Origin: Ewingella sp. CoE-038-23
Lineage (GTDB): Bacteria > Pseudomonadota > Gammaproteobacteria > Enterobacterales > Enterobacteriaceae
Length of the DNA stretch: 64,000 nucleotides
Direction of reading: 5' to 3'
NCBI RefSeq assembly: GCF_040419245.1
Contig: NZ_JAZHOH010000001.1
Span: 4,030,001 to 4,094,000 of the forward strand
Shown: positions 11,574 through 40,509 of the stretch, in pieces
How positions within the stretch are numbered: the first letter of the stretch is position 1
Layout: each line of letters begins with the position of its first letter
Made by a program: the position numbers and the translations under genes
Notes under the pieces: model-generated
Seen by the model: only the letters and a program-made list of their open reading frames with translations
The model's database searches: none
Told to the model about the DNA's origin: nothing

Positions 11574-11603
11574 AAAGAGGCTATATTATTGAAGTATCAA
11601 TAA

Positions 11604-20178: not shown

Positions 20179-21111
20179 TCAATTTACGAACATTATTCGT
20201 GCGTCAAATCTGCGTGAAAGCTGCTGTTCGCGGAACTTTTCCATCACGAAATCCACAAAAACTCGGGTCTTTGCGGGCAGCATTTTATGCGTGGGAAAAT
20301 AGAGCGAAAGCGTACCGTTTTCGGCATACCAATTCGGCAATACGCGAACCAGCCGACCACTCTCCAGATAGGGCAATAAATTGGGAAGGCTCGCCACCGC
20401 GATGCCCAGTCCCATCACCGCCGCCTCGCAGCAAGCTTCTGGCTCGTTGAAGGTCATACGCTCGGGCAACGAAATGGCCGCCTGCCGGTCCTGGCTGTCG
20501 CGCAGGATAAAATTACGCACACGCCCGGTCTGTGGAGAGCGAATGCGGATCCCCTCGCCAAAGGCTAAATCTTCGGGTTCGACAAAAGGCGGCTTGCTGG
20601 CGAGATAGGCGGGCGACGCCGCCAAAACGGTGTGCGCTGGCGCAAGTTCGCGGGCCACAATCCCTTGCGGCAGCTCAAATCCGCCGCCGATAGCTGCGTC
20701 GAATCGCTCGCCAATCAGGTCGATTTTGCGATTATCAAATTCCCAATCGGGGCGAATAAGAGGATAGCGGCCCAAAAACTCGTCCAGCAAAGGCAGCAAA
20801 TAGTGAATACCAAAGTGGGTGCCGACGCTCACCTTGAGCGGCCCTGACGGATGCTGCGCGCTGCTGTCCAGACTGTTCATCGCCATCTGAATCGACGCCA
20901 AACCACCGCGAACCTCGAGTAAAAAGCGCTCGCCCGCTTCGGTTAGCGTAAGTTTTCGCGTGCTGCGTTGGAAAAGCCGCACTCCAAGCTGGGCTTCCAG
21001 CGTAGTGACGTTTTTGCCTACCGCCGCCGAGGTCAATGCCAGACGCCGCCCGGCAGCCGAAAAACTGCCCGTATCGGCACTCTCTACAAAGCATTCTAGA
21101 TGATTAATCAT
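20179..21111 (-). CDS. LysR family transcriptional regulator
   Basis: A 310-residue LysR regulator with the N-terminal HTH (CFVESADTGSFSAAGRRLAL, SAAVGKNVTTLEAQLGVRLF) and an effector domain that includes RKIDLIGERFDAAIGGGFEL. It is divergent from an SDR gene at 21237, with a perfect nine-base inverted repeat in between. It therefore resembles the LysR/SDR pair at 4755-6531 but the proteins are clearly different. The C-terminal 20 residues extend past the usual end of the family. Confidence 0.9.
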   Translation of the reverse strand: MINHLECFVESADTGSFSAAGRRLALTSAAVGKNVTTLEAQLGVRLFQRSTRKLTLTEAGERFLLEVRGGLASIQMAMNSLDSSAQHPSGPLKVSVGTHFGIHYLLPLLDEFLGRYPLIRPDWEFDNRKIDLIGERFDAAIGGGFELPQGIVARELAPAHTVLAASPAYLASKPPFVEPEDLAFGEGIRIRSPQTGRVRNFILRDSQDRQAAISLPERMTFNEPEACCEAAVMGLGIAVASLPNLLPYLESGRLVRVLPNWYAENGTLSLYFPTHKMLPAKTRVFVDFVMEKFREQQLSRRFDARIMFVN

Positions 21112-21123
21112 ACTCTTAGGCCC

Positions 21124-21146
21124 ATTTCAAACTTTTGGTTTGAAAT
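21124..21146. promoter_or_regulatory. Inverted repeat between divergent LysR and SDR genes
   Basis: ATTTCAAAC (21124-21132) and GTTTGAAAT (21138-21146) form a perfect nine-base dyad with a five-base spacer, just upstream of the LysR start codon. It fits the T-N11-A pattern of LysR sites and is the probable operator. Confidence 0.6.
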
Positions 21147-21236
21147 GATTATAGCGATTACTGGCTATTCCTATCCTAATTTCGGGTCAATACTTGTCTC
21201 CATCAACACCTCTTCCTAATGATTTGGAGACATACC

Positions 21237-21995
21237 ATGACTACCACAACACCTTCTTCTTCACTGGCTGGCAAAGTCGCTTTCGTCCAAGGCGGCGCGC
21301 GGGGTATCGGCGCAGCTATCGTTCGTCGCTTAGCTCAGGAAGGCGCAAGCGTGGCCTTTACCTACGTTTCTTCGGCGGAGAAAGCCAACGCGCTGGCGGC
21401 AGAGATTGAAAAAATCGGCGTTAAAGCCTTAGCCATTCAGGCCGACAGCGCAAATGAGCAGGCCGTTCGTCTGGCCATCACGCAGGCCGCCAAGCATTTC
21501 GGCCATGTCGATATTCTGGTCAATAATGCCGGGGTTTTGGCCGTCGCACCGCTCGACGAATTCAGCATGGAAGATTTTGACCGCACGCTGGCAATTAATG
21601 TACGCAGCGTGTTTGTTGCCAGTCAGGAAGCGGCGCGCCACATGCCGGAAGGCGGGCGCATTATCAATATCGGCAGCACCAATGCTGATCGCATGCCCTT
21701 CGCCGGTGGCGCGGTGTACGCCATGAGTAAATCAGCCATAGTTGGCCTTACCAAAGGATTGGCGCGAGATTTAGGGCCACGGGGGATCACGGTGAATAAC
21801 GTTCAGCCCGGCCCGGTTGATACCGATATGAACCCGGCAGCAGGCGAAATGGCCGATGAGTTAACAAAGCTGATTGCGGTAAACCGTTATGGCAAAGACA
21901 GCGAAATCGCTGCCTTTGTGGCTTTCATCTCTGGCCCCGAGGCGGGTTATATCAGCGGCGCCAGCCTGACTATCGACGGTGGTTTTGGCGCCTAA
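21237..21995 (+). CDS. SDR family NAD(P)-dependent oxidoreductase
   Basis: A 252-residue classical SDR. Its cofactor motif is QGGARGIGAAIVRRLAQEG, in which the usual TGG is QGG. NNAG is present in ILVNNAGVLAVA, and the catalytic Ser and Tyr-x-x-x-Lys are in INIGSTNADR and YAMSKSAIVGLTK. PGPVDTDMNPAAGE and the terminal SGASLTIDGGFGA are typical of FabG-like or SDR5-type oxidoreductases. The ATG at 21237 follows GGAGA. It is probably controlled by the divergent LysR protein. Its stop lies six bases from the convergent alr stop. Confidence 0.9.
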   Translation: MTTTTPSSSLAGKVAFVQGGARGIGAAIVRRLAQEGASVAFTYVSSAEKANALAAEIEKIGVKALAIQADSANEQAVRLAITQAAKHFGHVDILVNNAGVLAVAPLDEFSMEDFDRTLAINVRSVFVASQEAARHMPEGGRIINIGSTNADRMPFAGGAVYAMSKSAIVGLTKGLARDLGPRGITVNNVQPGPVDTDMNPAAGEMADELTKLIAVNRYGKDSEIAAFVAFISGPEAGYISGASLTIDGGFGA

Positions 21996-22001
21996 TAGCA
22001 C

Positions 22002-23087
22002 TCAGGCGTCATTACCGACATAAACGCGGGCAGTGCGGGCGGTCAACTGAGTGACCAGCTCGTACTGGCTGATGCCGGTCGCGGCGGCGATCTGTTCGAC
22101 CGGCAGCCCTTCTCCCCAGAAAATCACTTCATCCCCCACCCGGTCGGTGGCATCCGGGCCGAGATCGACGGAAATCATATCCATCGAAACGCGTCCAACG
22201 ATTGGCACAATGCGGCCATTGACCAGCACCGGCGTGCCGCTCGGCGCGCTTCTTGGATAGCCGTCGCCATAGCCCATCGCCACCACGCCAAGGCGCGTAT
22301 CTCGCGTGCTGCGCCAAACGCCGCCATAGCCCACAGGTTCACCCGCCGCGTGATCGCGCACGGCGATCAGGCTGGAGGTTAGGGTCATCGCGGGTTTTAA
22401 GCCAAAATGGGCGGCATCGGCGAAGCTCATCGGCGAAACGCCGTAGAGGATCAGGCCAGCGCGCACTAAGTCGTGATGGGCTTCGGGCCAGTGGAGAATT
22501 CCGCTCGAAGCGGCGAGAGATTTCAGCCCCGGCTTGTCCTGAGTGAACTGCTGGAAGCTGCGAATCTGGTCAGGTGTGGCTTCAACATCGGGTTCGTCTG
22601 CACGGGCGAAGTGGCTCATAATATTGACCGGCTGGCGAACATTCGGACAGGCGCTGAGGCGCTGATAAAACGCCTCGGCTTCGGCGGGGTGAACCCCCAA
22701 ACGATGCATACCGGTGTCGAGTTTCATCCACACCGTGAGCGGCTTGTCGAGCGTAGCCTGCTCCAGAGCCTGTAACTGTTCACGGCTGTGAACCGCGGTT
22801 TCCAACCCCCGCGCCGCCACCAAAGGCAGCTCTTCGGCGCTAAAAAACCCTTCCAGCAGCAAAATAGGCTTAATAATACCGCCAGCCCGCAGAGTTAATG
22901 CTTCGCTCAGGCGAGCCACGCCGTAGCAATCTGCATCCTGCAAAGCCTGCGCGGCTTCCAGCAAACCGTGTCCGTAGGCGTTAGCCTTCACCACCGCCAC
23001 CACACGACTTTGCGGCGCCATATGCCGCACCCGTTGCAGATTATGTCGCAGAGCGCGGCAATCAATGACAGCCGTAGCCGCTTTCAT
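22002..23087 (-). CDS. alr: Alanine racemase
   Basis: A 361-residue PLP enzyme that interconverts L- and D-Ala for peptidoglycan. The PLP lysine is Lys34 in [13 protein letters not shown]; the second catalytic Tyr sits in EPVGYGGVW, and [11 protein letters not shown] and [17 protein letters not shown] are family hallmarks. The ATG at 23087 has AGGAATC upstream and matches E. coli Alr in length; a longer frame to 23150 has no better site. It lies downstream of dnaB on the same strand, as in E. coli, but with a structured intergenic repeat between them. Confidence 0.96.
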
Positions 23088-26681: not shown

Positions 26682-27716
26682 TTAAGCTTGGCTGAGCGCC
26701 GCGTGCGGCTGAGTGACCAGCTGCAGCGCCTGCTCAACCACTTCAATACCTGAACCCGGCTTATGGGCGTTTTCGCTCAGGTGACGACGCCATTGGCGCG
26801 CGCCGGGCACGCTCTGGAAAATTCCCAGAATGTGCCGCGTCATGTGCCCCAGATAAGTGCCCTTCGCCAACTCCGCCTCAATGTACGGATACATGCTACG
26901 AATAACCTCCGGCGCCGTGCGCAGCGGGGCATCTGAGCCAAACAGCTCGCGGTCCACGTTCAGCAACATGCCAGGGTTTTGATAGGCTTCGCGCCCCACC
27001 ATCACGCCATCCATATGTTGCAAATGCGCCTTGGCTTCTTCCAGCGTTTTGATGCCGCCGTTAATCGCCATCGTCAGGTGCGGGAAGTCTTTTTTCAGCT
27101 GATATACGCGCGGGTAATCCAGCGGTGGGATCTCACGGTTCTCTTTCGGGCTGAGGCCAGACAACCAGGCTTTGCGGGCATGGATGATAAAGGTGTCGCA
27201 GCCGCCCTTCTCAGAGACTTGCTGAACGAAGTCGCAAAGGAACTCGTAGCTGTCTTGTTCGTCGATGCCAATACGCGTTTTTACCGTCACGGGAATGGAC
27301 ACCACGTCGCGCATGGCTTTGATGCAATCCGCCACCAGCGAGGCTTGCGCCATCAGGCAGGCACCGAACATGCCGTTTTGCACGCGGTCAGACGGGCAGC
27401 CAACGTTCAGGTTGATCTCGTCATAGCCGCGCTGTTCGGCAAGCTTGGCGCAGGTCGCCAAATCCGCAGGATTGCTGCCACCCAGTTGCAGCGCCACAGG
27501 GTGCTCCGCGTCACCAAATCCAAGGTAGTCGCCTTTGCCGTGAATGATCGCGCCGGTGGTAACCATTTCGGTGTATAGCAGCGTTTGGCCGGTCATTAAA
27601 CGATGGAAATGGCGGCAATGACGATCGGTCCAGTCGAGCATCGGCGCGACGGAAAAACGTTGAGCGGAGTAAGGCTTGGCGCTGGTTTGAGATGTGGCGT
27701 TTTGAGTTTCTGACAT
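26682..27716 (-). CDS. dusA: tRNA-dihydrouridine(20/20a) synthase
   Basis: A 344-residue FMN enzyme that reduces U20/U20a in the tRNA D-loop. It has the FMN-binding [19 protein letters not shown], the catalytic Cys in [18 protein letters not shown], the His/Lys region [16 protein letters not shown] and the phosphate loop [11 protein letters not shown] followed by [12 protein letters not shown]. Length is near the E. coli enzyme. A TATAAT-like hexamer is on the minus strand at 27787-27792. In E. coli the next upstream gene is zur; here the 12-kb sugar island lies in between. Confidence 0.97.
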
Positions 27717-27888: not shown

Positions 27889-29319
27889 TTAGACGATCGC
27901 CTTGGTTGAAGCCCGCTCGGCCTTGCTCTGCCCCAGCTGTTGCTCCAACACTTCCAGTGAAACACCTTTGGTTTCAGGCACCTTGAGTTGCACGAAGGCC
28001 CATCCCGCCAGGCAAATCGCGCCATACATGAAGAAACTCCCCGCCGCGCCCAGCGCCACGTTGAGCAGCGGGAAGGTGTAAGTCAGGACAAAACAGGCGA
28101 CCCACAGCGCCAGCGTACAGGTCGCCATTGCCGTGCCTCGCACCCGATTGGGGAAGATTTCTGACAGCAAAACCCACGTCACCGGAGCCAGCGTTACCGC
28201 GTAAATCGCAATGGCGACCAGCACCAGGAGCAGAACCGGCAGCCCCATAATGCCAAAGGAATAGGCCATACCAATCAGCACGTAGATGATGGTCAGGCCC
28301 GCCGCGCCGTACTGCATCAGGCGGCGACGCCCAATGCGGTCCACCAGCGGCAGCGCCAGAAGTGTAAAGATCAGGTTGATCAGGCCGGTGGCCACAATGG
28401 ATTTCAGCGTGTCGTTGATGTCGAAGCCCGCCGAGGCGAAAATCTCCTGCGCGTAGTTGAAGATGACGTTAATCCCGCACCACTGCTGAAATACCGCCAG
28501 CACCACGCCCATCACCACGATAGGTCTAACTTTCGGCTGCCATAGGGCGGAGAGCGGCACTTGCTGGTTTTCCGACCCCAGCGAGTGGCGGATATCAGAG
28601 AGCGTCTGCTGCGCGTACTCCACCGAGCCAATGCGGCGCAGCACTTTTTCAGCCTGCGGATAGCGGTTTGCTTTCGCCAGCCAGCGCGGTGATTCCGGCA
28701 CCACGAACATCAGTAGCAGGAACAACACTGCAGGAATGCCTTCCGCGCCGAACATGTAGCGCCAGCCAACCTGCGCATTCCAGGTTTGCAGGATTTCAGC
28801 CTGTGTCGCCGCCGAAGCCACGGGTTCAGCAATCATCAGGTTGACCAGCTGCGCGGCAAGCACGCCGATAACAATGGTCAACTGATTGACGGCCACAAAG
28901 CGCCCGCGCTTCTCGGCTGGGCTGATCTCGGCGATATAAACCGGCGCGAGGGCCGAAGCCAGACCAATACCGACCCCGCCGACAATGCGCCAAAATACAA
29001 ACCAGTCGAAGTCGTTAGCCAGTGCAGTTCCCACGGCCGAGAGCGTAAAGGCAATCGCCGCGATAATCAGCGGCAGGCGGCGGCCAAAACGGTCTGACAG
29101 CCAGCCCGATACCATGGCCCCAAGGATACAGCCCACCAGCGCCGAGCTCATGGCCCAGCCGGAGGTGGCGGGGTCGGTAATATGGAAATAGGCCTCGTAG
29201 AACGGCTTCGCACCGCCAATCACCACCCAGTCGTAGCCAAACAGCAGCCCGCCACAGGCGGCAACCAGACAGATCATCCAGACATAGGGCATGTTCAGTG
29301 TTGTAGGATTTTTCATCAT
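27889..29319 (-). CDS. MFS sugar porter (GalP/XylE type)
   Basis: A 476-residue major-facilitator sugar:proton symporter with 12 predicted membrane helices. All sugar-porter hallmarks are present: GGLLFGYDWVVIGGAK in helix 1, GWLSDRFGRRLPL after helix 2, VYIAEISPAEKRGRFVAVNQ after helix 4, VPESPRWLAKANR in the central loop, LVDRIGRRRL after helix 8, and KVPETKGVSLEVLEQ at the end. QQWCGINVIFNYAQEIF matches the sugar-binding QQ segment of helix 7. The start has AGGAGC. It is the last gene of the minus-strand sugar operon and 8 bases behind the epimerase gene. The exact sugar is not evident. Confidence 0.92.
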   Translation of the reverse strand: MMKNPTTLNMPYVWMICLVAACGGLLFGYDWVVIGGAKPFYEAYFHITDPATSGWAMSSALVGCILGAMVSGWLSDRFGRRLPLIIAAIAFTLSAVGTALANDFDWFVFWRIVGGVGIGLASALAPVYIAEISPAEKRGRFVAVNQLTIVIGVLAAQLVNLMIAEPVASAATQAEILQTWNAQVGWRYMFGAEGIPAVLFLLLMFVVPESPRWLAKANRYPQAEKVLRRIGSVEYAQQTLSDIRHSLGSENQQVPLSALWQPKVRPIVVMGVVLAVFQQWCGINVIFNYAQEIFASAGFDINDTLKSIVATGLINLIFTLLALPLVDRIGRRRLMQYGAAGLTIIYVLIGMAYSFGIMGLPVLLLVLVAIAIYAVTLAPVTWVLLSEIFPNRVRGTAMATCTLALWVACFVLTYTFPLLNVALGAAGSFFMYGAICLAGWAFVQLKVPETKGVSLEVLEQQLGQSKAERASTKAIV

Positions 29320-29327
29320 TGCTGCTC

Positions 29328-30239
29328 CTAGCCCGTCGTCGTAGGAGTTAGGGTGCTTTCCGAAGTAAGCGTCATGGTTTGAGTAAGCGTTTCATGGGGT
29401 TCCAGCACCTTGAGGCCCCCTAAATCAGCCATGTTGTGGCCATTGGCGGCGTGACTCATCGGCTCGAAACAGAAGAAATCAAAGTCATAGCCGCGATCGA
29501 ACTTAGGGTCTGAGACGAAAACGAAATAGACCGGACAGGCTGGCTCCGTAGACAGACTTAGCTGCTGTTGATGACTCGGCCAGATAATGTTCGCCTGCCC
29601 ATCCCACCCCGAAAACCCGTTGTTCACCCAGCGGCGCGGCAAGGTTTTTGCCGTCGAGAACTGCACATCCTCGGGTAAGTCGGCCTGATGTTCACCCGCC
29701 AGCCACTGAGCCTCTTCCAGCCAATATCCTGCAGCATTGGCCTGAAGCAGGGTGTCCTCATCAAGAGGGAAATAGGGGTGCCAGCCAAGGCCAAAGGGCA
29801 TCGCCACTTTGCCCAGATTCGTGACACTGAGCGTCACCTCAAGCTGATTATCCACCAGCTCAAATCGCTGCAAAGCGCGATACTGATAAGCTCCGTGATG
29901 ATGGCTAAACTCCAACAGCAGGTGCCAATCATCATGTTCGGCGCAGCGCCACTCCTGTAACCAACCATCACCGTGCAAATAGTGGGCGTCCCAGTCGGTG
30001 TTGGGTTTTAACGGATAGCGCGTGCCGTCAAAGTCAAATTGGTTGCCGTTAACCCGATTACCAAAAGGCACCAGCGGGAAACAGCCGGATTGCAGCGGCG
30101 GCGTATCGGGGGAGACTTTTGCTGGTCGCAACAATGGCAGGTCGGCTCCGTTGCAATGTGCCACCAGCTGGATGATGCTGCCGCCATGAGTAGACACCTT
30201 AAGGGAAAGCTGTGGATTGGTTAGCGTAAACAGAGACAT
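29328..30239 (-). CDS. Aldose 1-epimerase family protein
   Basis: A 303-residue galactose-mutarotase-fold protein. Residues expected of active mutarotases are visible: PLVPFGNRVNGNQF, HGDGWLQEW (first His), FGLGWHPYFPL (second His), and FFCFEPMSHAANG with the Glu base. These enzymes interconvert anomers of free aldoses, so that an imported sugar is presented in the form a dehydrogenase or kinase needs. The gene lies between the zinc dehydrogenase (18-base gap) and the MFS porter (8-base gap). Substrate sugar unknown; the C-terminus carries a Thr-rich tail. Confidence 0.9.
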   Translation of the reverse strand: MSLFTLTNPQLSLKVSTHGGSIIQLVAHCNGADLPLLRPAKVSPDTPPLQSGCFPLVPFGNRVNGNQFDFDGTRYPLKPNTDWDAHYLHGDGWLQEWRCAEHDDWHLLLEFSHHHGAYQYRALQRFELVDNQLEVTLSVTNLGKVAMPFGLGWHPYFPLDEDTLLQANAAGYWLEEAQWLAGEHQADLPEDVQFSTAKTLPRRWVNNGFSGWDGQANIIWPSHQQQLSLSTEPACPVYFVFVSDPKFDRGYDFDFFCFEPMSHAANGHNMADLGGLKVLEPHETLTQTMTLTSESTLTPTTTG

Positions 30240-30257
30240 AGCGCGCTCCTCGAAGGG

Positions 30258-31319
30258 TTAATCGGCGAAGTTGATGACAACTTTGCCGCATTTGCCACTG
30301 GCCATTAGCGCATAGGCCTCGCCCGCCTGTTCCAGCGTGAAACGGTGGGTAATGGCGCTTTGCGGCCGCATCTTCCAGTCGTGTAAATCGCCACAGCATT
30401 TCTCCATGTTGTAGAGGCTGGTGACCCACGAGCCGATGATCTGCCGCTGGTGGTGCATTAGGTCGGCGCTGACTTCAAATTCGACTTTGCCGGTTTCGCC
30501 GATATAGACCACGCGCCCCCAGTCGGCGGTCGCTTGCAAGGCCAGCAAGCGGCCTTGGGCATTGCCGGAGCAGTCCAGCGCGACATCAGCCCCGCCCCTC
30601 GTCAGCTCGACAATAGAAGGGATCAGGCTGTCCCCGCTGGCTAAAAAGCCGTGATCCATCAAGCCGAGCTTTTTGGCGGTCGCCAGACGCTCAGGCTGAA
30701 CGTCAACGCCAATGACGCGCTTGGCACCCCGGCCTTTGGCTAGCATCATCGCCATCATGCCCACCGGGCCAAGTCCGACGACGAGCACGTTATCGCTACC
30801 CGAGACATTGCCGCGCAGGATGCCTTCATAGGCCGTCCCGACGCCGCAGGAGATGAATGCGCCATCTTCGTAGCTCAGGGAGTCCGGCAGGTGAATCAGG
30901 TCTTTCTCTTCCGCCAGCAGATATTCAGCATGCCCGCCATCGCGCTGCCAGCCGTAAGCCGCCTTGCCCTCGCCGGTGCAGGAGATAGGGAAACCTTTGC
31001 GGCAGTTGGGGCAGAAGCCACAGCCAGAAATGTGGTAAACCAGCACGCGGTCAGCCTCTTTGAAGTGGCGGCACCCGGCCCCCAGACTGACAATTTGGCC
31101 GCAAGGTTCGTGGCCATTAATAAAGCCCTGATAAAGAGGTTTATCCGGCGCGGCGGCGGTCGCCCGATGCTGGTGATAAATATAATGAACGTCGCTGCCG
31201 CAAATTCCCGACGATTTCATTTTTATTAACACCTGTCCGATCCCCGGCGTTGGGATCGCCACTTCTCTTAATTCGGCAGTAGAGTTTCCCGGTAAATAAG
31301 CCGCCAACATGGTTTTCAT
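30258..31319 (-). CDS. Zinc-dependent alcohol/polyol dehydrogenase (MDR family)
   Basis: A 353-residue medium-chain dehydrogenase. Catalytic zinc ligands are present in GICGSDVHYIY and INGHEPCGQIV (Cys, His-Glu), and the structural zinc is held by the four cysteines of SGCGFCPNCRKGFPISC. The Rossmann motif is VVGLGPVGMMAMMLAKGRGA and a DVQP acidic residue suggests NAD. Similar proteins include sorbitol and L-threonine dehydrogenases. In this operon it probably oxidises the imported sugar or a polyol derived from it. The ATG at 31319 has GAGAGGAAT upstream; the ATG five codons earlier overlaps that site. Confidence 0.9.
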   Translation of the reverse strand: MKTMLAAYLPGNSTAELREVAIPTPGIGQVLIKMKSSGICGSDVHYIYHQHRATAAAPDKPLYQGFINGHEPCGQIVSLGAGCRHFKEADRVLVYHISGCGFCPNCRKGFPISCTGEGKAAYGWQRDGGHAEYLLAEEKDLIHLPDSLSYEDGAFISCGVGTAYEGILRGNVSGSDNVLVVGLGPVGMMAMMLAKGRGAKRVIGVDVQPERLATAKKLGLMDHGFLASGDSLIPSIVELTRGGADVALDCSGNAQGRLLALQATADWGRVVYIGETGKVEFEVSADLMHHQRQIIGSWVTSLYNMEKCCGDLHDWKMRPQSAITHRFTLEQAGEAYALMASGKCGKVVINFAD

Positions 31320-31408
31320 ATTATTCCTCTCCATAAATTTGAAAATTGTTCATTTTCTTTTTGCCATCACGCCTCGCGAAGATTGTTTGCAAGGCGCAAA
31401 GGTGCAGA

Positions 31409-32413
31409 TTATTTTTTCGAGCGAACTCGACTATTTCGCTGAGTCAGAAGAATGTTTGCCAGCACGGCGACGACGATAATTACGCCGCGCACCACTTGCT
31501 GGAAGAAGGAGTTAATCCCCAGCAGCACCAATCCATTGCCAATCAGCGTGATAACCAGAACCCCGAGCAAGGTGCCAAGCAGCGAGCCTCGGCCGCCGGA
31601 CAGCGCCGTGCCGCCCACCACCACCGCCGCGATAACGTCAAATTCCAAGCCATTGGCCGCCCCGGCGTTGCCTGAACCCAGACGCGCCGCGAGTAAGATC
31701 CCGGTGACGGCGGCCAACAGGCCGGAGAGCGTGAAGATGAGCACCCGCACGCGTTTGACATTGATGCCGCACAGCTGCGCCGCCGAGGCGTTACCGCCCA
31801 CGGCATATACCGAGCGTCCAAAGGCCGTTTTGCGGCTGACAAACAGGAATACGGCGAATAAAATCAGCATGATAAGCGCCGAGACAGGAATACCTGCCAC
31901 CTGCCCGCCCAGCCAGTCGAGCACGTCATTTTCGTCTATCGGCACTGGCAGGGCGTCGGTCATAAACAGGCCAAGCCCGCGCAGCGCGCTCCACAGGCCC
32001 AGCGTCGCCACAAAACTCGGCACGTTAAACCATCCGCGCAAGAAGCCCGCCAGAGTGCCAAAAGCCGCGCCAAGGATCAGCACCAGAACCAGCGACGCCG
32101 CCAGCGGCACCTGCGCCTGCATCAGATAGGCCAGACAGACTGAGACAAAAGCCACCGTCGGCCCGACGCTGACATCGATTTCACCGGCGATGATCACCAG
32201 CGTCATGGCCCACGCCGCAATGCCGATAGTCGCGGCATCGCGCAGCACATTCATCTGGTTACTGAGCGAAATAAAACCCGGCGCGTAAATTGAAAACACC
32301 AGATAGAGCAGAGCAATAACCACTAATAAGCCAATGGCATTAATATTCGCCGAAATAAAGGCGCGGCGGGATTCACCTTTTTCTTGTTGATAAGATAATG
32401 TCGTCATGGTCAT
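31409..32413 (-). CDS. Sugar ABC transporter permease (RbsC type)
   Basis: A 334-residue inner-membrane permease of the BPD_transp_2 (RbsC, AraH, XylH) family with about ten helices. It has the family loop MTLVIIAGEIDVSVGPTVAF, FNVPSFVATLGLWSALRGL, FGRSVYAVGGNASAAQLCGI (coupling loop to the ATPase) and VVVGGTALSGGRGS. The ATG at 32413 follows GGAG by seven bases. It is the membrane part of the importer formed with the two genes upstream. The gap to the ATPase gene is 164 bases and contains a hairpin. Confidence 0.92.
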   Translation of the reverse strand: MTMTTLSYQQEKGESRRAFISANINAIGLLVVIALLYLVFSIYAPGFISLSNQMNVLRDAATIGIAAWAMTLVIIAGEIDVSVGPTVAFVSVCLAYLMQAQVPLAASLVLVLILGAAFGTLAGFLRGWFNVPSFVATLGLWSALRGLGLFMTDALPVPIDENDVLDWLGGQVAGIPVSALIMLILFAVFLFVSRKTAFGRSVYAVGGNASAAQLCGINVKRVRVLIFTLSGLLAAVTGILLAARLGSGNAGAANGLEFDVIAAVVVGGTALSGGRGSLLGTLLGVLVITLIGNGLVLLGINSFFQQVVRGVIIVVAVLANILLTQRNSRVRSKK

Positions 32414-32547
32414 TTCATTACTCCACACTATTTCCCGGCATCGAAATAAAAGCCCGGAAACGAAAGCCATCATTTACCGGTAACGGAGAGGCTCTTGCTC
32501 GCCAGCGTTTATTTGAGCCCCTCGCTATCGCCCTGATTTATATTTTT

Positions 32548-32575
32548 AGCCGCAGGTTTTATTCACTCCGCGGCT
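32548..32575 (-). other. Intercistronic hairpin after the ABC ATPase gene
   Basis: AGCCGC (32548-32553) and GCGGCT (32570-32575) form a six-base stem in the 164-base gap between ATPase and permease genes. It directly follows the ATPase stop and could set message stability. Evidence is structural only. Confidence 0.4.
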
Positions 32576-32577
32576 AT

Positions 32578-34119
32578 TTAATGTGACGCTAGTATTTCCG
32601 CCATTAACTCTTCGGTACTCACAGGTGAGGTTAGAGTTCGGGTCAGCGTGCCCTGCTGCAACAGCAAAATTCGGTCGCAAACCAGTGGCAGTTCCTCAAC
32701 TTCACTTGAGACAAAGATGATGCTTTTGCCTTCGGCGGCCAGTTGGCGAACTATCTGATAAATCTGGTTTTTAGCTTCTACATCCACCCCGCGCGTTGGC
32801 TCATCAAGCAAAAGCACGCGGCTTTCGGCATAGACCCAGCGGCCAATCACCACTTTCTGCTGGTTGCCGCCGGAGAGCGTGCCGATTGGCGTCGTGGTGC
32901 TGGCGGCCTTCACCCGCATTCTGGCGATAATGTCCTGGGTGTATTGGCGAATGTCGGCCCACTGCAAAACGCCCAGTCGGCTGACGCGATGGCGGTTGGT
33001 CATCACGGTATTTTCATCCACTCCGAGCAGCGGCATGATGCCCGCCTCTTTGCGGTTTTCCGGCGTGTACCCCAATCCGTGGGCCAGCATGCGGGCATAG
33101 GTCGGTTTGTGTATCCGCGCGCCGTCGATTTCCACTTCGCCTTCGCTGTAACTGTCCAGACCCGCCAAGGCTTTGAGCAGTTCTGTTCTGCCCGACCCCA
33201 GCAGCCCGGCAATGCCCAGCACCTCGCCTTGCAGCAGGTCGAAATTGATGTCGTGAAGTTTGGGTGGCAGATTCATGCCGCGAACCGACAACACGGGTTT
33301 TCCGCCTTGCGGTTGAGTGACTTGGTTGTCGCGATGCCCGCTGTGACCCAGCATCAGCGCGACAATCTCTTCGGTGGAGGCGTCGGCCAAACGGACATTT
33401 CCCGCCACTTTACCGTCACGCATGATGGTGGCGCTGGAAGCCAGACGGCGGATTTCATTCATTCGGTGGCTAACATAAATAACCGCGATGCCGACTTCAG
33501 CCATTGCCTGAACGGCGGCAATCACCAGTTCGACTTCGTTGGAAGCCAGAGAACTGGTGGGTTCGTCGAGGATAACCACCTGCGGATGGCCCTTCATAAC
33601 GCGGGCGATTTCAACCAGTTGCTTCTGCGCCGGGCTAAGGTTTTCAACCCGCAGCAGCGGGTCGATATCCACACCGAGATGCCCAAGGCAGTGCCGCGCC
33701 TGTTCCAACATCTTCTTGGCGTCGAGCATGCCGCCGCTGCGCGGCCACTCGCCGAGATAGAGGTTTTCCGCCACGCTGAGGCCGTCCACCAGACTCAGCT
33801 CCTGATACACCGCGCGCACGCCTAATTCCGCCGCGCGGCGAGTAAGCTGGGCATCGCTGCCGGAAAGGGTCTGCCCGCCTAACATCACGGTTCCTCGATC
33901 CGGCTTTTCACTGCCGGTGAGCAGGCGAATTAATGTCGATTTCCCGGCACCGTTTTTACCCAACAGGGCGCGGATCTCGCCGCGCTTTAGTGTGAAATCC
34001 ACATTCTCCAGCGCAATCACGCCCGGATACTCTTTGTAGCCGCCACGGACCGCTGCGACACAATCCTTATCATCGCCAGACGTGGTCATGGTGTCTGTTG
34101 CCATTGCAAGTGCTGACAT
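32578..34119 (-). CDS. Sugar ABC transporter ATPase (RbsA type, two ABC domains)
   Basis: A 513-residue fused double ATPase. The first domain has Walker A LLGKNGAGKSTLIRLL, signature LSPAQKQLVEIARV and Walker B VVILDEPTSSL. The second has the degenerate Walker A GLLGSGRTELLKALAG, signature LSGGNQQKVVIGRWV and VLLLDEPTRGVDV. This is the exact pattern of RbsA/XylG/AraG. The first ~30 residues (MSALAMATDTMTTSGDDKDC) are an unusual Thr/Asp-rich extension and the true start may be further inside. It lies 14 bases behind the binding-protein gene. Confidence 0.93.
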   Translation of the reverse strand: MSALAMATDTMTTSGDDKDCVAAVRGGYKEYPGVIALENVDFTLKRGEIRALLGKNGAGKSTLIRLLTGSEKPDRGTVMLGGQTLSGSDAQLTRRAAELGVRAVYQELSLVDGLSVAENLYLGEWPRSGGMLDAKKMLEQARHCLGHLGVDIDPLLRVENLSPAQKQLVEIARVMKGHPQVVILDEPTSSLASNEVELVIAAVQAMAEVGIAVIYVSHRMNEIRRLASSATIMRDGKVAGNVRLADASTEEIVALMLGHSGHRDNQVTQPQGGKPVLSVRGMNLPPKLHDINFDLLQGEVLGIAGLLGSGRTELLKALAGLDSYSEGEVEIDGARIHKPTYARMLAHGLGYTPENRKEAGIMPLLGVDENTVMTNRHRVSRLGVLQWADIRQYTQDIIARMRVKAASTTTPIGTLSGGNQQKVVIGRWVYAESRVLLLDEPTRGVDVEAKNQIYQIVRQLAAEGKSIIFVSSEVEELPLVCDRILLLQQGTLTRTLTSPVSTEELMAEILASH

Positions 34120-34133
34120 AGTCGAACCCCAGA

Positions 34134-35120
34134 TTAAGGTAAGCCATCCTGATGGGTGTCCAGCCAGCCCTGTCCCTGAGCTGAGGTGGTGTAGAGGTCA
34201 ATCGGTACTTGAATGACTTTGTCCGCTGGCAGGGTTTTGTTGATGGCTTGCAGCGTTTTGGCAAACACCTGCTCGCCCATTTTCTTACCTGAGATATCCA
34301 CGACTGCCTTAAGCACCTGATTTTTATTCAGCTCTTGGGCGATTTCGGTGGTCATGTCGGAGCCAAACACCACGGTTTTCCCCACGCGATTCTGATTGCG
34401 CACGGCCTTCACAGCGCCAAGGCTCGCCCCGCCGGATTCACCAAAAATGGCGTCTAGGTCAGGCTGGGAAATCAGCAGTTTTTCACCCACTGAAATGGCT
34501 TTGTCGATGGCGGTTCCTTCCTGATTCGCCACGATACTCATGCCCGGCACTCGCTGCTTCAGCGCGGCTTCGAAGCCTTTACGGCGCTGGACGCACACTT
34601 CGAAGGCTTCGCAGTTAATCACCGCGATTTTCGGCGCAGTAATGTTGTTAGCGATAAAGTAGTCGGCGGCAGCATCACCCGCTTTGCGGCCAAACTCCAC
34701 CGGGTCGCCCACCAGATAGGCCGCGACATACTTCTGCACACCTTTGTCGCTAATGCAGGTGTTGTAGCAAACCACGGGGATCCCAGCCTCGCTGGCCCGC
34801 TGGATCGCCCGGCGACTGCCCTGTTCCGACACAGCGGAGAGCACGATGGCATCGACCTTGCGGGCAATCAGCGTGTCGATGAACGTGCTCTCTTTCGAGA
34901 TATCGCCCTGCGCGTTGGTTTCAATCAAATTCACTTTGTCGCCAGAGGCGTTGGCACTTTGCTGCACCCCGGCTTTTACTCCGGCGTAATAGCCTTGGGT
35001 ATCGAGATAGATGGCTCCGACGGTCAGCGCTTTCGCCGATTCGGCCTGCGCATGAGTGAGGGTGAATAAACCGGTCAGTAGGGCGGTAGTCAGAGCAATT
35101 CTTTTACAGTTGAACGGCAT
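34134..35120 (-). CDS. Periplasmic sugar-binding protein of the ABC importer
   Basis: A 328-residue Peripla_BP_4 (ribose/galactose-binding) protein. It opens with a signal peptide (CKRIALTTALLTGLFTLTHA then a QAES cleavage region). The mature part has VGAIYLDTQGYYAGVKAGVQ, ARKVDAIVLSAVSEQGSRRA, AGIPVVCYNT and VVFGSDMTTEIAQEL. It delivers the sugar to the RbsAC-type genes downstream. It lies 158 bases after the DUF5107 gene, behind a strong hairpin, so it may be expressed at a different level from that gene. Confidence 0.92.
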   Translation of the reverse strand: MPFNCKRIALTTALLTGLFTLTHAQAESAKALTVGAIYLDTQGYYAGVKAGVQQSANASGDKVNLIETNAQGDISKESTFIDTLIARKVDAIVLSAVSEQGSRRAIQRASEAGIPVVCYNTCISDKGVQKYVAAYLVGDPVEFGRKAGDAAADYFIANNITAPKIAVINCEAFEVCVQRRKGFEAALKQRVPGMSIVANQEGTAIDKAISVGEKLLISQPDLDAIFGESGGASLGAVKAVRNQNRVGKTVVFGSDMTTEIAQELNKNQVLKAVVDISGKKMGEQVFAKTLQAINKTLPADKVIQVPIDLYTTSAQGQGWLDTHQDGLP

Positions 35121-35216
35121 GATTCCTCCGGTATTCCTGGGTTGGCGTGATGTTCTGGTAAGGTTGGTGGCTAATTTATTGTTTTAGTTGTGAAGTAAAT
35201 GTTTTCGATGAGTTAA

Positions 35217-35250
35217 CACAGTGGGGATAAAGTAAATCATCCCCGCTGTG
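35217..35250 (-). terminator. Intercistronic hairpin between the DUF5107 and binding-protein genes
   Basis: CACAGTGGGGAT (35217-35228) pairs with ATCCCCGCTGTG (35239-35250) with one mismatch and a ten-base loop. No T run follows, so it is more likely a partial terminator or mRNA-end structure inside the operon than a full stop. Confidence 0.5.
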
Positions 35251-35278
35251 CAGTTATTCATCACGATCACGGATTAAA

Positions 35279-38200
35279 CTAAACAGCGTTTAGTAAACCC
35301 TCCTGTTGCTCAGCAAGGCGTAGGAAAAGCTGTGCTTTGTTGTTGGCCGGATTGAGTACCAGCGCCTGTTGCAAGCTGCTGGCCGCTGCACTGTTATCTC
35401 CTGCCCCCAACTCGGCTAAGCCTTTGACGAATAACAGATGTTCCTTGTGTTGAAGCTGGCGATCGCCGTTGAGTACCAGCAGGTCAGGCAAGGAGACGGC
35501 GAAGAAGTCGGCGGTGACGACATCACCGCTGGCCTGCTCGGCCCAATCGCGCATTTGGCTAAATAGCTGATTAGCCTCGGCTTGCTGGTCTAGCTGGCGC
35601 AATGCCATGCCCTGATAGAACAGATAATCCACCGGCTGGTCGTTGTAATAACGGCGCTCGCTGATGCCTTTATCACCCTGCGCGGCGCGCTCGAACCACT
35701 GTTTTGCCTGCCCGTGCTGCCCCAGCTGTTTGGCAGTGACGCCGAGCCAGTAGTAAAGGTCGTTGTCGGTTTGCCCAACCAGCCGCCCTTCGGCAAGGTT
35801 CAGCGGATAGGTCTGCGCCGCCAGTAAAATCTCCTGCGCCTCTGCCGGTTTGCCGCTGTTGAGCAATTCAAACGCCCGCAGTTGCGCATTCAACAAGAAC
35901 TGCCCGGTGACACGCCCTTCGCCCCCTTCCCACGGATGGAACTGGCGCTCTGACAGCAGCGTTGCCGCCTGCTGCAACTTGCCGGTTTGGTGATAAAGCC
36001 CCAGCAGCTCGGCCGTTAGATCATCGCGCTGGGTCGCCACATCGAGGTGCTTTTCGAGCAGCGCGAGGCGGGTTTGCGGCGTCGCCGAGGTGAGTTTTTT
36101 CAGTAAATCCTGCTCAAACAGCAGACGGGCATCGTGCGGAGCCAGCGCGTAAGCTTTATCGAAGTAGCGGGCCGCCGCGTCGGCATCATGGTCGATATTC
36201 CACGCGTGGATCCCCAATCCGCGCCATGCGTCGGTGAAGTCCGGTTCAAGCTCAAGGCTGCGCTGCCAGTGAGCAACCGCAGGTTGTAGATTGCCCTTGC
36301 TGTAGTGGAAACAGGCCAGCAAGTGGTGGGCAAAGGCGTCATCAGTGAAGCTGTTAAGTATCTGCACTTCGGCAACGCTGTTCGGGAAGCGAACATTGTC
36401 GGGGAAAGCCTGACGGGCCTGACTTACCAGCGACTGGCGGTTGTGCGGGTCAAGACTTGCCTGCACATAGAGCGGCAGAGTTTCGCGGCTGTCGACGGAC
36501 TCCAGCGCCTCCAGCGCCAGGGTGTTAAAGCCGAAAGAGAGCAGCTGGGTGGCGATATTCAGCGCGCTTTCCCCACGCTGCCCGGTGACTTTACGCAGCG
36601 CGTGCAGAGATTCGCTGTTCGGCTGCTGCTGGTAGTTCAGGAAATGCAGCAGATAGTGCAACGGATAGCGCTGCAACTGCTGCTGGCGATAGCGCCCGGC
36701 AGAGGTCGCGTCGCCCACCCGTTGTAGCAGCAATGCTTTCAGACCAATCAGGCCGTAATGGCTGGCGTGGCTTTCCAGACCCTGCTCGCAAAATTGCAGC
36801 GCATCGGCAAATTTCTCACGGCGGGTGGCGATTCGAGCCAAACCAAAGTAGCCGCCAGACTTGGCGTTGCCGCTCCAGATGGCGCGGAAGAAGTCTTCAT
36901 AGGCGGCATCAAGATTGTCGGTTTGCTCATAAGCACAGGCGCGGATCAGACTGGCAAGGCCGCACTGCGGGTTCTTATTCCAGCGATGGGCGCGGCTCAG
37001 GGCATTATCGGCAAAGGCAATGCTGCTGGCGAAGTTGCTGCGGTTATAGTCGCGAGTCGCCAGCGCCAGGTTACAGCGGTAGTCCAATGGATCGAGTTCC
37101 AGCCCGCGCTGATAGTAGGTTGGCGCGCCATGGCTGGCGTGGTTGTACTGTTCAAGGTGCTGGCCGATAAACCAGGCTTCCTCGGCAGTTTGGATTTGGT
37201 CAGCGGGAAGTGGCGCTTTGGCGGCTTCGGGCAGCGGCGTTTCCTTCGGCTGATGCTCGAGATAATGCAGAATTTCGCGACCGTTTTCCGCCAGCAGGCT
37301 GATTTTAAGCCGCCCGCCGAACTCCCCTTGCAGGCTGGCATGCAGCACTTCGCCCGGTTGCAGACTAATGACTTTATCCACCAAGACTTGTTCACCATCG
37401 GCCTCGGCGATCAGCACCCGCGCTTGGTGCAGCGGCGCCACGGCGTAGATGCCCCACTCCACCTTTTGCCCGTCGCGCTGCAATTTGAGCACGGCGTCGG
37501 TATTGGCGTTTTGCACCATGCCCAGCTCGCTGTAGGGCATGAAATTCTGCACGAAGCACTTCTCTTCATAGGCGTCGAGCCACGTAAAGTCCGGCTGGTT
37601 GTCGGTGAAGACGCCGGTCATTAGCTCGATGTACGGGCCGTTGTGGTCGGTAAGATTGCGGTCCCAGGCCAGGCCGAAGGCGCAGTTGCCCCAGGTCCAC
37701 TGCTTTTTGCCCGGCGAGACATGGTGATCCGCCACGTGCAGCAAGCCGCCGCGATCGTCGTGGCTGTAAGCACCGACAAAATCATAGGCCGATTTATCCG
37801 CCATGTAGGAAGTCGGTACCGGAATATTCTTGTAGCGCGAGATATCCACGCCGCGTGAGTAATCGACTTTGTAATAGGTGCCGGTGGCGATGGGAAAAGA
37901 GGACACATCCCGTTTGCCGTGGTCGAACACGGCGGTGACATCCGGCGGGAAAACGCTCTGATGATCATCCCCGCCCTTCACCGCCGGGTTAGCCCACCAC
38001 AGGAAGTGGCGCGGGGTCGGGTTGGCGTTATAGATTTTGGCGCTAATTTCCAGCAGCGCCTTGTCTGGATAGAGCGTAAAGCCGGTCATCACCTGCAAGC
38101 CGCGCATCGGCTCCACTTCCCCCATCCAAACGGTTTGCGCGCCGTTTTCATGCTGCTGCAAGGTGAAATCCACCGGCATAAAAGTGGTTGGGCGATGGTG

Positions 38201-38566
38201 CTGCGGCCAGTTGAATTCAATTCCGCCGGAGATCCACGGCCCAAGCAGGCCCACCAAGGCCGGTTTAATCACTTCGTTGTGATAGACAAAATCACGCTGT
38301 TTGATCTTGTCCCAGGCGCGGTGAACGCGCCCGCCAAGCTCGGGTAACAGCATGATTTTTAGATAATCATTTTCCAGATAGAGCGCCTGATAGGGCTGCA
38401 TCTGCTTCTCGCCCGTCAGTTGATCAGTCACGCCGTACGGATAGACATTGCCCGAAGAACCTTGGTAGACCCGATGGGCTAAAAACATCGGATGGGTATC
38501 CTGTTTTCCCGTGAGATACGTCGGTAATTCGACCTGTTCCTGCCAGACTTTTACATTTCCGCTCAT
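35279..38566 (-). CDS. DUF5107 domain protein with C-terminal TPR array
   Basis: A 1095-residue protein without signal peptide or membrane helices, so probably cytoplasmic. Residues about 40-345 form a DUF5107 beta-sandwich: YLKIMLLPELGGRVHRAWDK (70-88), GGIEFNWPQHHRPTTFMP (114-131, with Glu117 and His123/124), FLWWANPAVKGGDDHQ (188-203) and PYIELMTGVFTDNQPDFTWL (311-330). The Glu and His residues in loops recall mutarotase-fold carbohydrate enzymes. From about 460 to the end are helical TPR-like repeats, e.g. PTYYQRGLELDPLDYRCNLA and LQPAVAHWQRSLELEPDFTD. It heads the operon, divergent from a ROK regulator. The reaction is not known to me; carbohydrate action is inferred from fold and context. 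Confidence 0.85.
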   Translation of the reverse strand: MSGNVKVWQEQVELPTYLTGKQDTHPMFLAHRVYQGSSGNVYPYGVTDQLTGEKQMQPYQALYLENDYLKIMLLPELGGRVHRAWDKIKQRDFVYHNEVIKPALVGLLGPWISGGIEFNWPQHHRPTTFMPVDFTLQQHENGAQTVWMGEVEPMRGLQVMTGFTLYPDKALLEISAKIYNANPTPRHFLWWANPAVKGGDDHQSVFPPDVTAVFDHGKRDVSSFPIATGTYYKVDYSRGVDISRYKNIPVPTSYMADKSAYDFVGAYSHDDRGGLLHVADHHVSPGKKQWTWGNCAFGLAWDRNLTDHNGPYIELMTGVFTDNQPDFTWLDAYEEKCFVQNFMPYSELGMVQNANTDAVLKLQRDGQKVEWGIYAVAPLHQARVLIAEADGEQVLVDKVISLQPGEVLHASLQGEFGGRLKISLLAENGREILHYLEHQPKETPLPEAAKAPLPADQIQTAEEAWFIGQHLEQYNHASHGAPTYYQRGLELDPLDYRCNLALATRDYNRSNFASSIAFADNALSRAHRWNKNPQCGLASLIRACAYEQTDNLDAAYEDFFRAIWSGNAKSGGYFGLARIATRREKFADALQFCEQGLESHASHYGLIGLKALLLQRVGDATSAGRYRQQQLQRYPLHYLLHFLNYQQQPNSESLHALRKVTGQRGESALNIATQLLSFGFNTLALEALESVDSRETLPLYVQASLDPHNRQSLVSQARQAFPDNVRFPNSVAEVQILNSFTDDAFAHHLLACFHYSKGNLQPAVAHWQRSLELEPDFTDAWRGLGIHAWNIDHDADAAARYFDKAYALAPHDARLLFEQDLLKKLTSATPQTRLALLEKHLDVATQRDDLTAELLGLYHQTGKLQQAATLLSERQFHPWEGGEGRVTGQFLLNAQLRAFELLNSGKPAEAQEILLAAQTYPLNLAEGRLVGQTDNDLYYWLGVTAKQLGQHGQAKQWFERAAQGDKGISERRYYNDQPVDYLFYQGMALRQLDQQAEANQLFSQMRDWAEQASGDVVTADFFAVSLPDLLVLNGDRQLQHKEHLLFVKGLAELGAGDNSAAASSLQQALVLNPANNKAQLFLRLAEQQEGLLNAV

Positions 38567-38676
38567 GCGTTCCTCTCACCAATGAATACTGAAAAGTTCA
38601 ATTTCGTGAGTCTACGCAGCGAAAGCGGCTAATTAATGCGCTACCGTCACGCAATTCAGTAAGCGGAGTTTAGTGA
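38567..38676. promoter_or_regulatory. Divergent promoter/operator of the sugar operon and ROK gene
   Basis: The 110-base interval carries a seven-base inverted pair TACTGAA (38587-38593) and TTCAGTA (38655-38661), plus a local dyad GAAA-AGTTCAA-TTTC (about 38591-38605). ROK repressors normally bind such AT-rich dyads in the divergent region, so one or both are probable operators. No -10/-35 pair was convincing. Confidence 0.5.
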
Positions 38677-39879
38677 ATGCAACTTAAGGGTTTGAACAAT
38701 CTTCGGGTCAGGGAATTCAATAAAAAGGTGCTGATGACCCTGCTCTATCGCGAGAAAACGGCGAGCAAATCGACGCTGGCGCGGTTGTCTAACCTGTCGA
38801 TTCCGGCCGTCGGCAAGATCCTTAATGAGTTGCAGGAAGAGGGGCGAGTGGTTCATAGCGACGTGAATCTGCATTCGCGAGGATTAGGCGGTGGCAGCTA
38901 TCAAGTGGCGGTGGAAGACAGCGATATTCTGTGCATGAATGTCTCACCCTATCGCATTGAAAGTATTCTGGTTGATCGGCTTATCACGGCAAAAAGCGAA
39001 TTTCGCCTGAGTGAAATCGCAGTGAAAACACCCAGTGAGCTGCTTAATGAGATAGAACGCCTGTTTCATGACTATCGCAAACAATATCGGGGAAGAAACC
39101 TCAGCCTTGCGCTGTCGATTCACGGGCAGGTTAATCCCACCACCGGCGTCTCGCAGAACATGCCGCAGGCCCCGTGGGACAGTGCAATAGAGATTAAATA
39201 TTTACTGGAGGAGAAGCTCCATACTGAAATTTTGATGGATAACGACTGCATTATGCTGGCTTTAGCAGAAAAATGGCAACACACTGAAATTCAGCGTGAT
39301 TTTTGCTTTATCAATGTAGATTACGGCATTGGCTCCTCATTTGTTATCAACCAGCAGATTTATCGTGGCAATCTATTTGGCAGCGGCCAAATCGGGCACA
39401 CCATTATCGACCCCGACGGCAGCCTCTGCTCTTGCGGGCGATATGGCTGTCTGGAGACTATCGCCTCGCTCTCCGCCATGAAGAAAAAAGCGCGGATGCT
39501 GCTGAAAAATGGCGCGGCGGCGGCTGATAAATCCGCCCTGCGCACCCCGACCACTCAGGAAATTATCGAAAGCTACCATCAGGGGGATGAAAACCTGCGC
39601 GTCATGGTGTTTGCGGCGGCGCGCGCCTTGGGGCTGAGCTTGTATAACTTCCTGAATATTCTCAATATCAACCAAATCCATCTCTATGGCCGCAGCTGCG
39701 GTTTTGGCGAGGCCTGGCTGAGCACGGTATTGGAACAGAGTGGCTTAAACCCCTTCGATAAAACCGACAGCGTGAAGACTCAGGCCACGCATATTGGCCT
39801 TGGGACGCTCAGCCGCGAGCAGCAAATCATGGGAATTGGTTATTTGTATGTGGAACAAGCGCTAGAAAATCGCGTCTGA
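38677..39879 (+). CDS. ROK family transcriptional regulator
   Basis: A 400-residue regulator of the NagC/Mlc/XylR group. An N-terminal winged HTH (about 10-70) includes REKTASKSTLARLSNLSIPA and VGKILNELQEEGRV. The ROK sugar-binding domain follows: LSLALSIHGQVNPTTGVSQN, LMDNDCIMLALAEKW, CFINVDYGIGSSFVINQQI, and the zinc motif with GHTIIDPDGSLCSCGRYGC and LETIAS. It has the classic ROK regulator length. It should repress the divergent operon and be released by the sugar or its phosphate. GCGGAGT precedes the ATG. No kinase activity is expected from the HTH form. Confidence 0.92.
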   Translation: MQLKGLNNLRVREFNKKVLMTLLYREKTASKSTLARLSNLSIPAVGKILNELQEEGRVVHSDVNLHSRGLGGGSYQVAVEDSDILCMNVSPYRIESILVDRLITAKSEFRLSEIAVKTPSELLNEIERLFHDYRKQYRGRNLSLALSIHGQVNPTTGVSQNMPQAPWDSAIEIKYLLEEKLHTEILMDNDCIMLALAEKWQHTEIQRDFCFINVDYGIGSSFVINQQIYRGNLFGSGQIGHTIIDPDGSLCSCGRYGCLETIASLSAMKKKARMLLKNGAAAADKSALRTPTTQEIIESYHQGDENLRVMVFAAARALGLSLYNFLNILNINQIHLYGRSCGFGEAWLSTVLEQSGLNPFDKTDSVKTQATHIGLGTLSREQQIMGIGYLYVEQALENRV

Positions 39880-39999: not shown

Positions 40000-40509
40000 A
40001 TGACCCTGAACAATCCGGATCAACTTCTTTCACAGGCCGAAAAACTTTGCCAGAAGCGTAATGTGCGTTTAACGCCACAGCGTCTGGAAGTGTTGCGCCT
40101 GATGACGCAGCAACCCGGTGCCATTAGTGCTTACGATCTGCTGGATTTACTGAGAATTAGCGAGCCACAGGCCAAGCCACCCACCGTTTACCGTGCGCTG
40201 GATTTCCTGCTGGAACAAGGCTTTATTCACCGCGTTGAATCGGCCAACAGCTACGTGCTGTGCCATCATTTCGAAGAGCCGAGCCACACCTCTGCGCTGT
40301 TTATCTGCGATCGCTGCGGATTGGTCACAGAGAAGACCACGGACGGCATCGAAGAGAGATTGGCAAAATTGGCAGTAGAATCAGGGTTTGAATTGCGGCA
40401 TTCCGTGGTGGAAGCGCATGGTTTGTGCGGGGATTGTAAAGTGGTAGAGCTTTGCGACAGCCATGAACATTGCGAGCATGACCACAGTATTGTGACTAAA
40501 AAGCGCTAA
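40000..40509 (+). CDS. zur: Zinc uptake transcriptional repressor
   Basis: A 169-residue Fur-family repressor colinear with E. coli Zur. The HTH segment is RNVRLTPQRLEVLRLMTQQP and ISAYDLLDLL with PPTVYRALDFLLEQGFIHRV. The zinc sites include the CDRCGLVTE and GLCGDCKVVELC cysteine pairs and the His-rich end HEHCEHDHS. It shuts off zinc import (znuABC) when zinc is plentiful. It stands 120 bases after the ROK gene on the same strand but has its own upstream interval, so separate transcription is likely. Confidence 0.96.
   Translation: MTLNNPDQLLSQAEKLCQKRNVRLTPQRLEVLRLMTQQPGAISAYDLLDLLRISEPQAKPPTVYRALDFLLEQGFIHRVESANSYVLCHHFEEPSHTSALFICDRCGLVTEKTTDGIEERLAKLAVESGFELRHSVVEAHGLCGDCKVVELCDSHEHCEHDHSIVTKKR

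Follow-up and report, generated by a model that had tools for sequence, protein, structure and literature searches.

A yph gene cluster with an additional sugar porter between dusA and zur in Ewingella sp. CoE-038-23 and its possible role in galactose scavenging

Gene content, identity and descent of the cluster

The locus considered here is an eight-gene carbohydrate cluster, corresponding to the yph genes of E. coli, that lies between dusA (26682..27716, minus strand) and zur (40000..40509, plus strand) in a 64,000-nucleotide stretch of Ewingella sp. CoE-038-23 DNA, referred to below as the window. Both flanking genes, which form the left and right borders of the insertion site, score above the NCBIfam cut-offs for DusA and Zur. 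Seven genes of the cluster are on the minus strand. They code for a 476-residue major facilitator superfamily (MFS) sugar porter (27889..29319; Pfam Sugar_tr, 354 bits) and for homologues of YphB, an aldose 1-epimerase (29328..30239; Aldose_epim), YphC, a zinc-binding dehydrogenase (30258..31334; ADH_N and ADH_zinc_N), YphD, an ATP-binding cassette (ABC) permease (31409..32473; BPD_transp_2), YphE, a double ABC ATPase (32578..34119; two ABC_tran stretches), YphF, a periplasmic sugar-binding protein (34134..35120; Peripla_BP_4), and YphG, a protein of 1095 residues with DUF5107 and TPR domains (35279..38566). The eighth gene, a yphH homologue, is read divergently on the plus strand and codes for a ROK/NagC-type regulator (38677..39879; Pfam ROK).

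Open reading frames (ORFs), Pfam and NCBIfam agree on the positions of the eight genes given in a first-pass annotation of this DNA, and the domain content named there is borne out by Pfam. Its description of a sugar-utilisation locus with two import routes and with no kinase, isomerase or aldolase gene in the set also holds, and no described pathway was found in the literature searched. It had taken dusA and zur to be immediate neighbours in E. coli; they are nearly adjacent, yjbL and yjbM lying between them in K-12.

The double ATPase, permease and binding protein together supply all the hallmarks of an RbsABC-type importer by Pfam. None of the eight genes is galK, galT or galE according to Pfam and NCBIfam, and the set is thus not a Leloir operon. 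The gaps between the seven minus-strand genes, from the porter to yphG, are 8, 18, 74, 104, 14 and 158 bp, and the divergent gap between yphG and yphH is 110 bp. Promoter- and terminator-like matches were not commoner than in shuffled sequence, which leaves orientation and spacing only as the grounds for a putative operon structure. Judging from the BLASTP alignment of residues 21–351 of the window's YphD with residues 1–331 of E. coli YphD, the real yphD start is probably about 20 codons inside the annotated ORF.

In E. coli K-12 the genes yphB, C, D, E, F and G are on one strand, with yphH divergent beside yphG (b2544–b2550). The identity of the window's proteins to those of K-12 is 51% for YphB, 88% for YphC, 83% for YphD, 67% for YphE, 72% for YphF, 60% for YphG and 56% for YphH (BLASTP), and the seven orthologues keep both order and orientation. 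The two clusters differ in their place, which is between yphA and glyA in K-12, and in the MFS porter, which follows yphB in the window and has no counterpart in the K-12 cluster; yphA is missing from the window's set. We thus reject the view of an unmatched island belonging to no known sugar operon: seven of the eight genes are yphBCDEFG and yphH, with a porter added. The first-pass annotation overstated the novelty of the gene set, and the interest lies in the fact that nearly all E. coli carry this uncharacterised operon, yphG having a match in 5372 of 5426 complete E. coli genomes (in 5369 over 80% or more of its length).

We recognised no functional study of the yph genes or of DUF5107 in the open-access literature, a search in which subscription papers could be missed. 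In the excerpts available, papers that mention yph genes assign them no function: yphFED is tabulated as a putative sugar ABC transporter (PMC10305011), YphF protein is reported to rise about 3.0- and 4.6-fold on levoglucosan compared with fructose (PMC8753852), and a yphF deletion in uropathogenic E. coli, one of several importer mutants, "performed similarly" to deletion of the whole system (PMC11032443).

Six genomes of the window's genus were compared, and three of them encode YphG. All eight genes are found in the window's own genome and in G001; the third, G004, has only yphH, yphG, yphB and the MFS gene, without yphCDEF. In the other three congeners the dusA–zur spacers are empty (260, 266 and 250 bp), and their ends match the two junction spacers of the window. 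The four-gene form is found at the same dusA–zur site in Rahnella ecdela (L054). The fastest-changing gene of the window's set is yphB (29328–30239), with 90.5% identity to the nearest congener against 96–99.7% for the other seven.

A sample of 394 genomes from the order gave 39 with a YphG match at E ≤ 1e-3. In 21 of these the match is strong (E ≤ 1e-156); the other matches, judged by their coordinates, are short or TPR-only. No internal stop is present in 19 of the 21 strong matches. Stops interrupt yphG in G364 (L005/L037) and G299 (L051), and an insertion sequence (IS) breaks it in one E. coli record.

In a YphG tree of 39 rows, the eight yphF-bearing loci fall inside one 12-row clade (support 98/98), which holds both the window and E. 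coli and within which the presence of yphF needs two changes. From this clade and the distribution of yphF, the window's set appears to be a yph cluster in which the MFS porter has been retained, not something new; the porter is likewise still present in the cluster of Enterobacter sp. R1(2018) (L056). A separate recent import of yphFEDC relative to E. coli was considered and rejected on divergence ratios and on the YphG tree, the divergence between the window and E. coli being 1.3 to 2.2 times that of the enterobacterial relative L036 from E. coli in all seven genes.

A search of plasmid records gave ten YphG hits, five of them on records filed as plasmids (NZ_CP093490.1, NZ_CP129873.1, CP012866.1, OY725976.1 and NZ_CP143321.1) with Klebsiella, Persicobacter, Phocaeicola and Cetobacterium as hosts; the other five are chromosome-sized or megabase records.

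Candidate operators and transporter partners

The yphG–yphH gap contains the palindrome ACTAAAC-N3-GTTTAGT, which is perfect in E. coli and has two mismatches in the window (O1, 38658..38674). Of the 35 sequences scanned, 30 have a site with at most 3 mismatches in its 14 positions roughly 100 bp upstream of yphG, the exceptions being L045, L048, L049, L068 and L070. In 30 shuffles of the window, which preserve base composition only, sites with 0–1 mismatches did not occur, and those with two and three mismatches had means of 0.03 and 1.8 per 64 kb. A second site upstream of yphF, weaker in E. coli, is perfect in the window, where it overlaps the yphG stop (O2, 35278..35294). Scored with a matrix built from 20 sites of the same family of loci, the second site beats all 48,984 background positions in seven of the eight yphG–yphF gaps (L058 excepted); the matrix scan found no second palindrome in any of 15 yphG–MFS gaps. 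From their position, we regard these palindromes as candidate operators of YphH.

A wider YphH regulon in the window's genome was also considered and, by the strict pattern, rejected. This pattern occurs at the two places in the cluster and at one place elsewhere only, between genes that we take, from their translations, to be molybdopterin-oxidoreductase-like and D,D-carboxypeptidase-like. As for a CRP site in the window's yphG–yphH gap, the best match had 4 mismatches in 10 positions, and this candidate was set aside.

Two loci associate the palindrome with galactoside genes. In L047 (843–12460), a distant relative within the same order, palindromes stand upstream of yphG and of a divergent gene for MelB (635.7 bits against an NCBIfam cut-off of 456), which adjoins a RafY-type porin gene; downstream of yphG are a GH36 (glycoside hydrolase family 36) alpha-galactosidase gene, yphB and a ROK gene. 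By its gene content, L047 is an alpha-galactoside locus that includes YphG. In L058 (589–8501), from Enterobacter sp. ENT03, a run of genes for a GPH transporter, a GH36 protein, an OprD-type porin and a GH2 protein resembling exo-beta-1,4-galactosidase lies beside yphH, with a palindrome upstream of the run. The corresponding transporter-side palindrome is weak in L063.

Frequencies by phylum refer to the best 80 of 584 YphG loci in a scan of named genomes, in which a gene was counted as present if found anywhere in the stretch, up to 10 kb on either side of YphG. L061, whose yphG frame was lost in ORF picking, and L051–L053 were dropped from the counts, and some genomes repeat others (e.g., L042 and L073). 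ORFs of the porter's cluster occur in 38 of 40 Bacteroidota loci, in 16 of 20 named Enterobacterales/Aeromonas loci and in the single Vibrionaceae and Ignavibacteriae loci; they occur in none of 16 Bacillota loci and not in the one spirochaete locus. The MFS porter is thus the usual partner of YphG outside Bacillota.

The window's porter is 40% identical to E. coli XylE and, with 397.6 bits against 608, stays below the NCBIfam XylE equivalog cut-off. The 12 YphG-linked porters that were compared, ranging from that of the window to those of Bacteroidota, all depart from XylE at the same five pocket positions out of 18 positions checked (175 V/I, 298 N, 383 Y, 388 A and 415 L, in XylE numbering). 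This agreement suggests a single conserved substrate other than xylose.

The simpler relatives of the cluster have the order yphG–MFS–yphB together with yphH, as in Cedecea davisae (L063), Aeromonas bestiarum (L074), Serratia sp. H1w (L055) and Citrobacter gillenii (L067). They share with the window YphG, the porter, the epimerase and the divergent ROK regulator, but lack yphFEDC and have the MFS gene before yphB; in six such loci (L041, L046, L055, L059, L063 and L074) YphB is 32–36% identical to that of the window. The AraC–MFS–YphG loci of Bacteroidota share a YphG homologue (about 42%) and the same type of porter. They differ in having an AraC regulator (31 of 40), a GalM-type epimerase (16 of 40), galactosidase-type glycoside hydrolases and, in some, SusC/SusD-type genes, and the four-gene yphFEDC block is absent from them.

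YphG, its galactosidase neighbourhood and galactokinase

The predicted structure of YphG consists of a DUF5107 domain with the galactose-mutarotase fold at the N-terminus, a second beta domain and a TPR superhelix of about 630 residues. Among 67 YphG sequences, 116 of the 157 invariant residues fall in the N-terminal 355 residues, and many of them are H, E, D, K, R or W; H123, H124, E117 and E314 are examples of invariant residues. YphG has no evident signal peptide and is presumably cytoplasmic. It is 11% identical to galactose mutarotase GalM and has about 750 further residues, and its profile does not match those of GalM or YphB significantly (hhalign probability 1.2 and 1.8%, against 98% for YphB with GalM as a control), so catalytic residues cannot be transferred from either protein. 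Another point of comparison, 5cd6 (BDI_1685, Parabacteroides distasonis), has only 575 residues, and the title of the entry names no function.

The recurrent neighbours of YphG are GH2, GH35, GH36, GH95, GH92 and GH97 proteins, aldose epimerases (for three of them the identity to E. coli GalM is 32–37%) and AraC regulators. Of the loci counted, 26 of 40 from Bacteroidota, 7 of 16 from Bacillota and 2 of the 20 named ones from Enterobacterales/Aeromonas contain a member of GH2, 35, 36, 95 or 97. The best NCBIfam match was exo-beta-1,4-galactosidase in all six GH2 proteins checked, out of 17 in the c7 cluster, with one above the cut-off, and a GH97 protein matches the retaining alpha-galactosidase model below the cut-off. 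Paenibacillus luteus has a GH53 gene next to YphG, on the upstream side, and a GH35 gene on the downstream side; GH53 is a family of endo-galactanases. The suggestion that an oligosaccharide is cleaved first finds no basis in the window's own set, but galactosidase genes do accompany relatives of YphG. Paenibacillus phytorum (L116) has two YphG copies (9992-13333 and 19393-22758), each with a divergent AraC-type gene.

Enrichment was estimated in 23 YphG genomes, which were picked by hand from 59 loci (L075–L133) after the neighbourhood map had been seen and which also supply the background gene densities. Within 10 kb of YphG are six of the 30 strong GH36 genes (0.14 expected; 30 of 50 matches were used, the 20 with an E of 2.6e-15 or weaker being dropped) and 7 of 37 GH35 genes, in six genomes (0.16 expected). 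As a control, GH43 gave no gene within 10 kb among the listed matches that could be placed, namely the 22 sharing a contig number with YphG, with 1.2 expected from 270. Over all 59 non-enterobacterial loci, GH36 is present in 7 (0.23 expected) and GH35 in 10 (0.29 expected). GH35 is still enriched in the 36 loci that were not hand-picked (4 versus 0.15 expected, P = 2e-5).

YphB exceeds the Pfam Aldose_epim cut-off by a wide margin (133 bits against 27) and shares with GalM the aligned Asn-Arg, His and Glu columns, which we take to be the catalytic ones. Its solved homologue is the YphB structure 3nre (PMC5902678).

A galactokinase gene is present in all 47 YphG genomes examined (23 of 23 and 24 of 24). 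In the first 23 genomes none lies within 30 kb of YphG, and none of 26 galK matches is within 10 kb. In the window's genome galactokinase lies far from yph, at C1:1153826 and yphG at C1:4065282. The lack of a kinase in the set, from which oxidation of the free sugar had been suggested, therefore need not imply that route.

Proposed function and alternatives

We propose, with a probability of roughly 0.53 and from comparative gene context, that the yph cluster is a YphH-controlled module for scavenging galactose or galactoside-type sugars. YphFED, probably with high affinity, and/or the XylE-like porter would import galactose or a galactoside; YphB would interconvert the anomers; YphG would bind the galactose-type sugar once it is in the cytoplasm and probably act on it; YphC, in lineages that carry it, might oxidise the sugar or a side product; and galactose would enter the Leloir pathway through the galactokinase encoded elsewhere. 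YphH would act as the repressor of the cluster, with ACTAAAC-N3-GTTTAGT upstream of yphG and of yphF as its two binding sites. If this is true, an uncharacterised operon of a model organism gains an assignable role and DUF5107 its first functional context. The comparison also names a sugar class, a candidate YphH operator, a conserved transporter partner and a set of invariant YphG residues, all of which are testable.

It should be noted that several observations weigh against this proposal. Enterobacteria already have known routes for the import and use of galactose, which leaves the need for a yph module unexplained. The galactosidase link is strongest outside Enterobacterales: GH2, 35 or 36 is present in only 2 of the 20 named enterobacterial/Aeromonas loci, and the window's genome has no GH36 over the cut-off. 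The choice of the 23 genomes after the map had been seen counts in the same direction, and in the 36 other loci GH36 is not clearly enriched (1 versus 0.12 expected, P = 0.12). The neighbourhood of YphG also includes GH92, GH95, GH30_2 and GH3 members and sulfatases, and a gene of a Paenibacillus locus (L082:20139-21104) looks GH43-like by eye and would be an exception to the GH43 control. To these are added the lack of a porter in Bacillota loci, the lack of yphFEDC in Bacteroidota loci and the non-significant YphG profile match. Galactokinase is common anyway: 9 of 14 control genomes have a galK match above the cut-off. Finally, six other ABC components rose alongside YphF on levoglucosan (PMC8753852).

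For YphG itself, we give an even chance that it is an enzyme. The other possibility, rather unlikely in our estimate and compatible with the galactose module, is a non-enzymatic role in which the mutarotase-fold domain binds and senses the sugar and signals to partners through the TPR superhelix, or in which YphG is a scaffold. The length of the superhelix and the absence of a significant profile match to mutarotases agree with such a role, but the clustering of invariant residues in the N-terminal 355 would suit an active site better than a scaffold. It would go much further, and we hold it doubtful, to make YphG the founder of a new class of carbohydrate enzymes, spread over three phyla or more, in which a TPR superhelix bears a mutarotase-fold catalytic domain and which act on galactose-type sugars immediately after galactosidases and before the Leloir pathway. 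If this were so, nearly every E. coli would have, in the yph cluster, a step of galactose metabolism that has been overlooked.

It is also unlikely, in our judgement, that the enterobacterial cluster handles a sugar other than galactose through oxidation of the free sugar by YphC, with YphG coming from a galactoside context and changing its substrate when yphFEDC joined. Galactose has an oxidation route of its own, the De Ley–Doudoroff pathway, which is marked by galactose dehydrogenase activity. YphC is a member of the zinc alcohol-dehydrogenase family for which sugar oxidation is a possible role. It is the most conserved protein between the window and E. coli (88%) and matches the NCBIfam threonine and scyllo-inosose dehydrogenase models, below their cut-offs; in the loci examined, the whole yphFEDC block is found in only one Enterobacterales clade of YphG, which fits a change of substrate there. 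Against such a change, the palindrome upstream of yphG is kept in loci with and without yphFEDC, the pocket residues of the window's porter are, apart from V/I exchanges, those of porters from loci without the block, and L058 combines yphFEDC with the adjacent GPH transporter, GH36 and GH2 operon that has its own upstream palindrome.

Finally, we think it very improbable that the locus is a remnant, neutral or in decay, of a sugar cluster that changes its site and is frequently lost: the empty sites in three of six congeners, the small number of genomes of the order with a strong YphG match (21 of 394) and the stops and IS in yphG noted above are what it would predict, but yphG persists in nearly all complete E. 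coli genomes, 19 of the 21 strong matches are stop-free and the palindromes are conserved.

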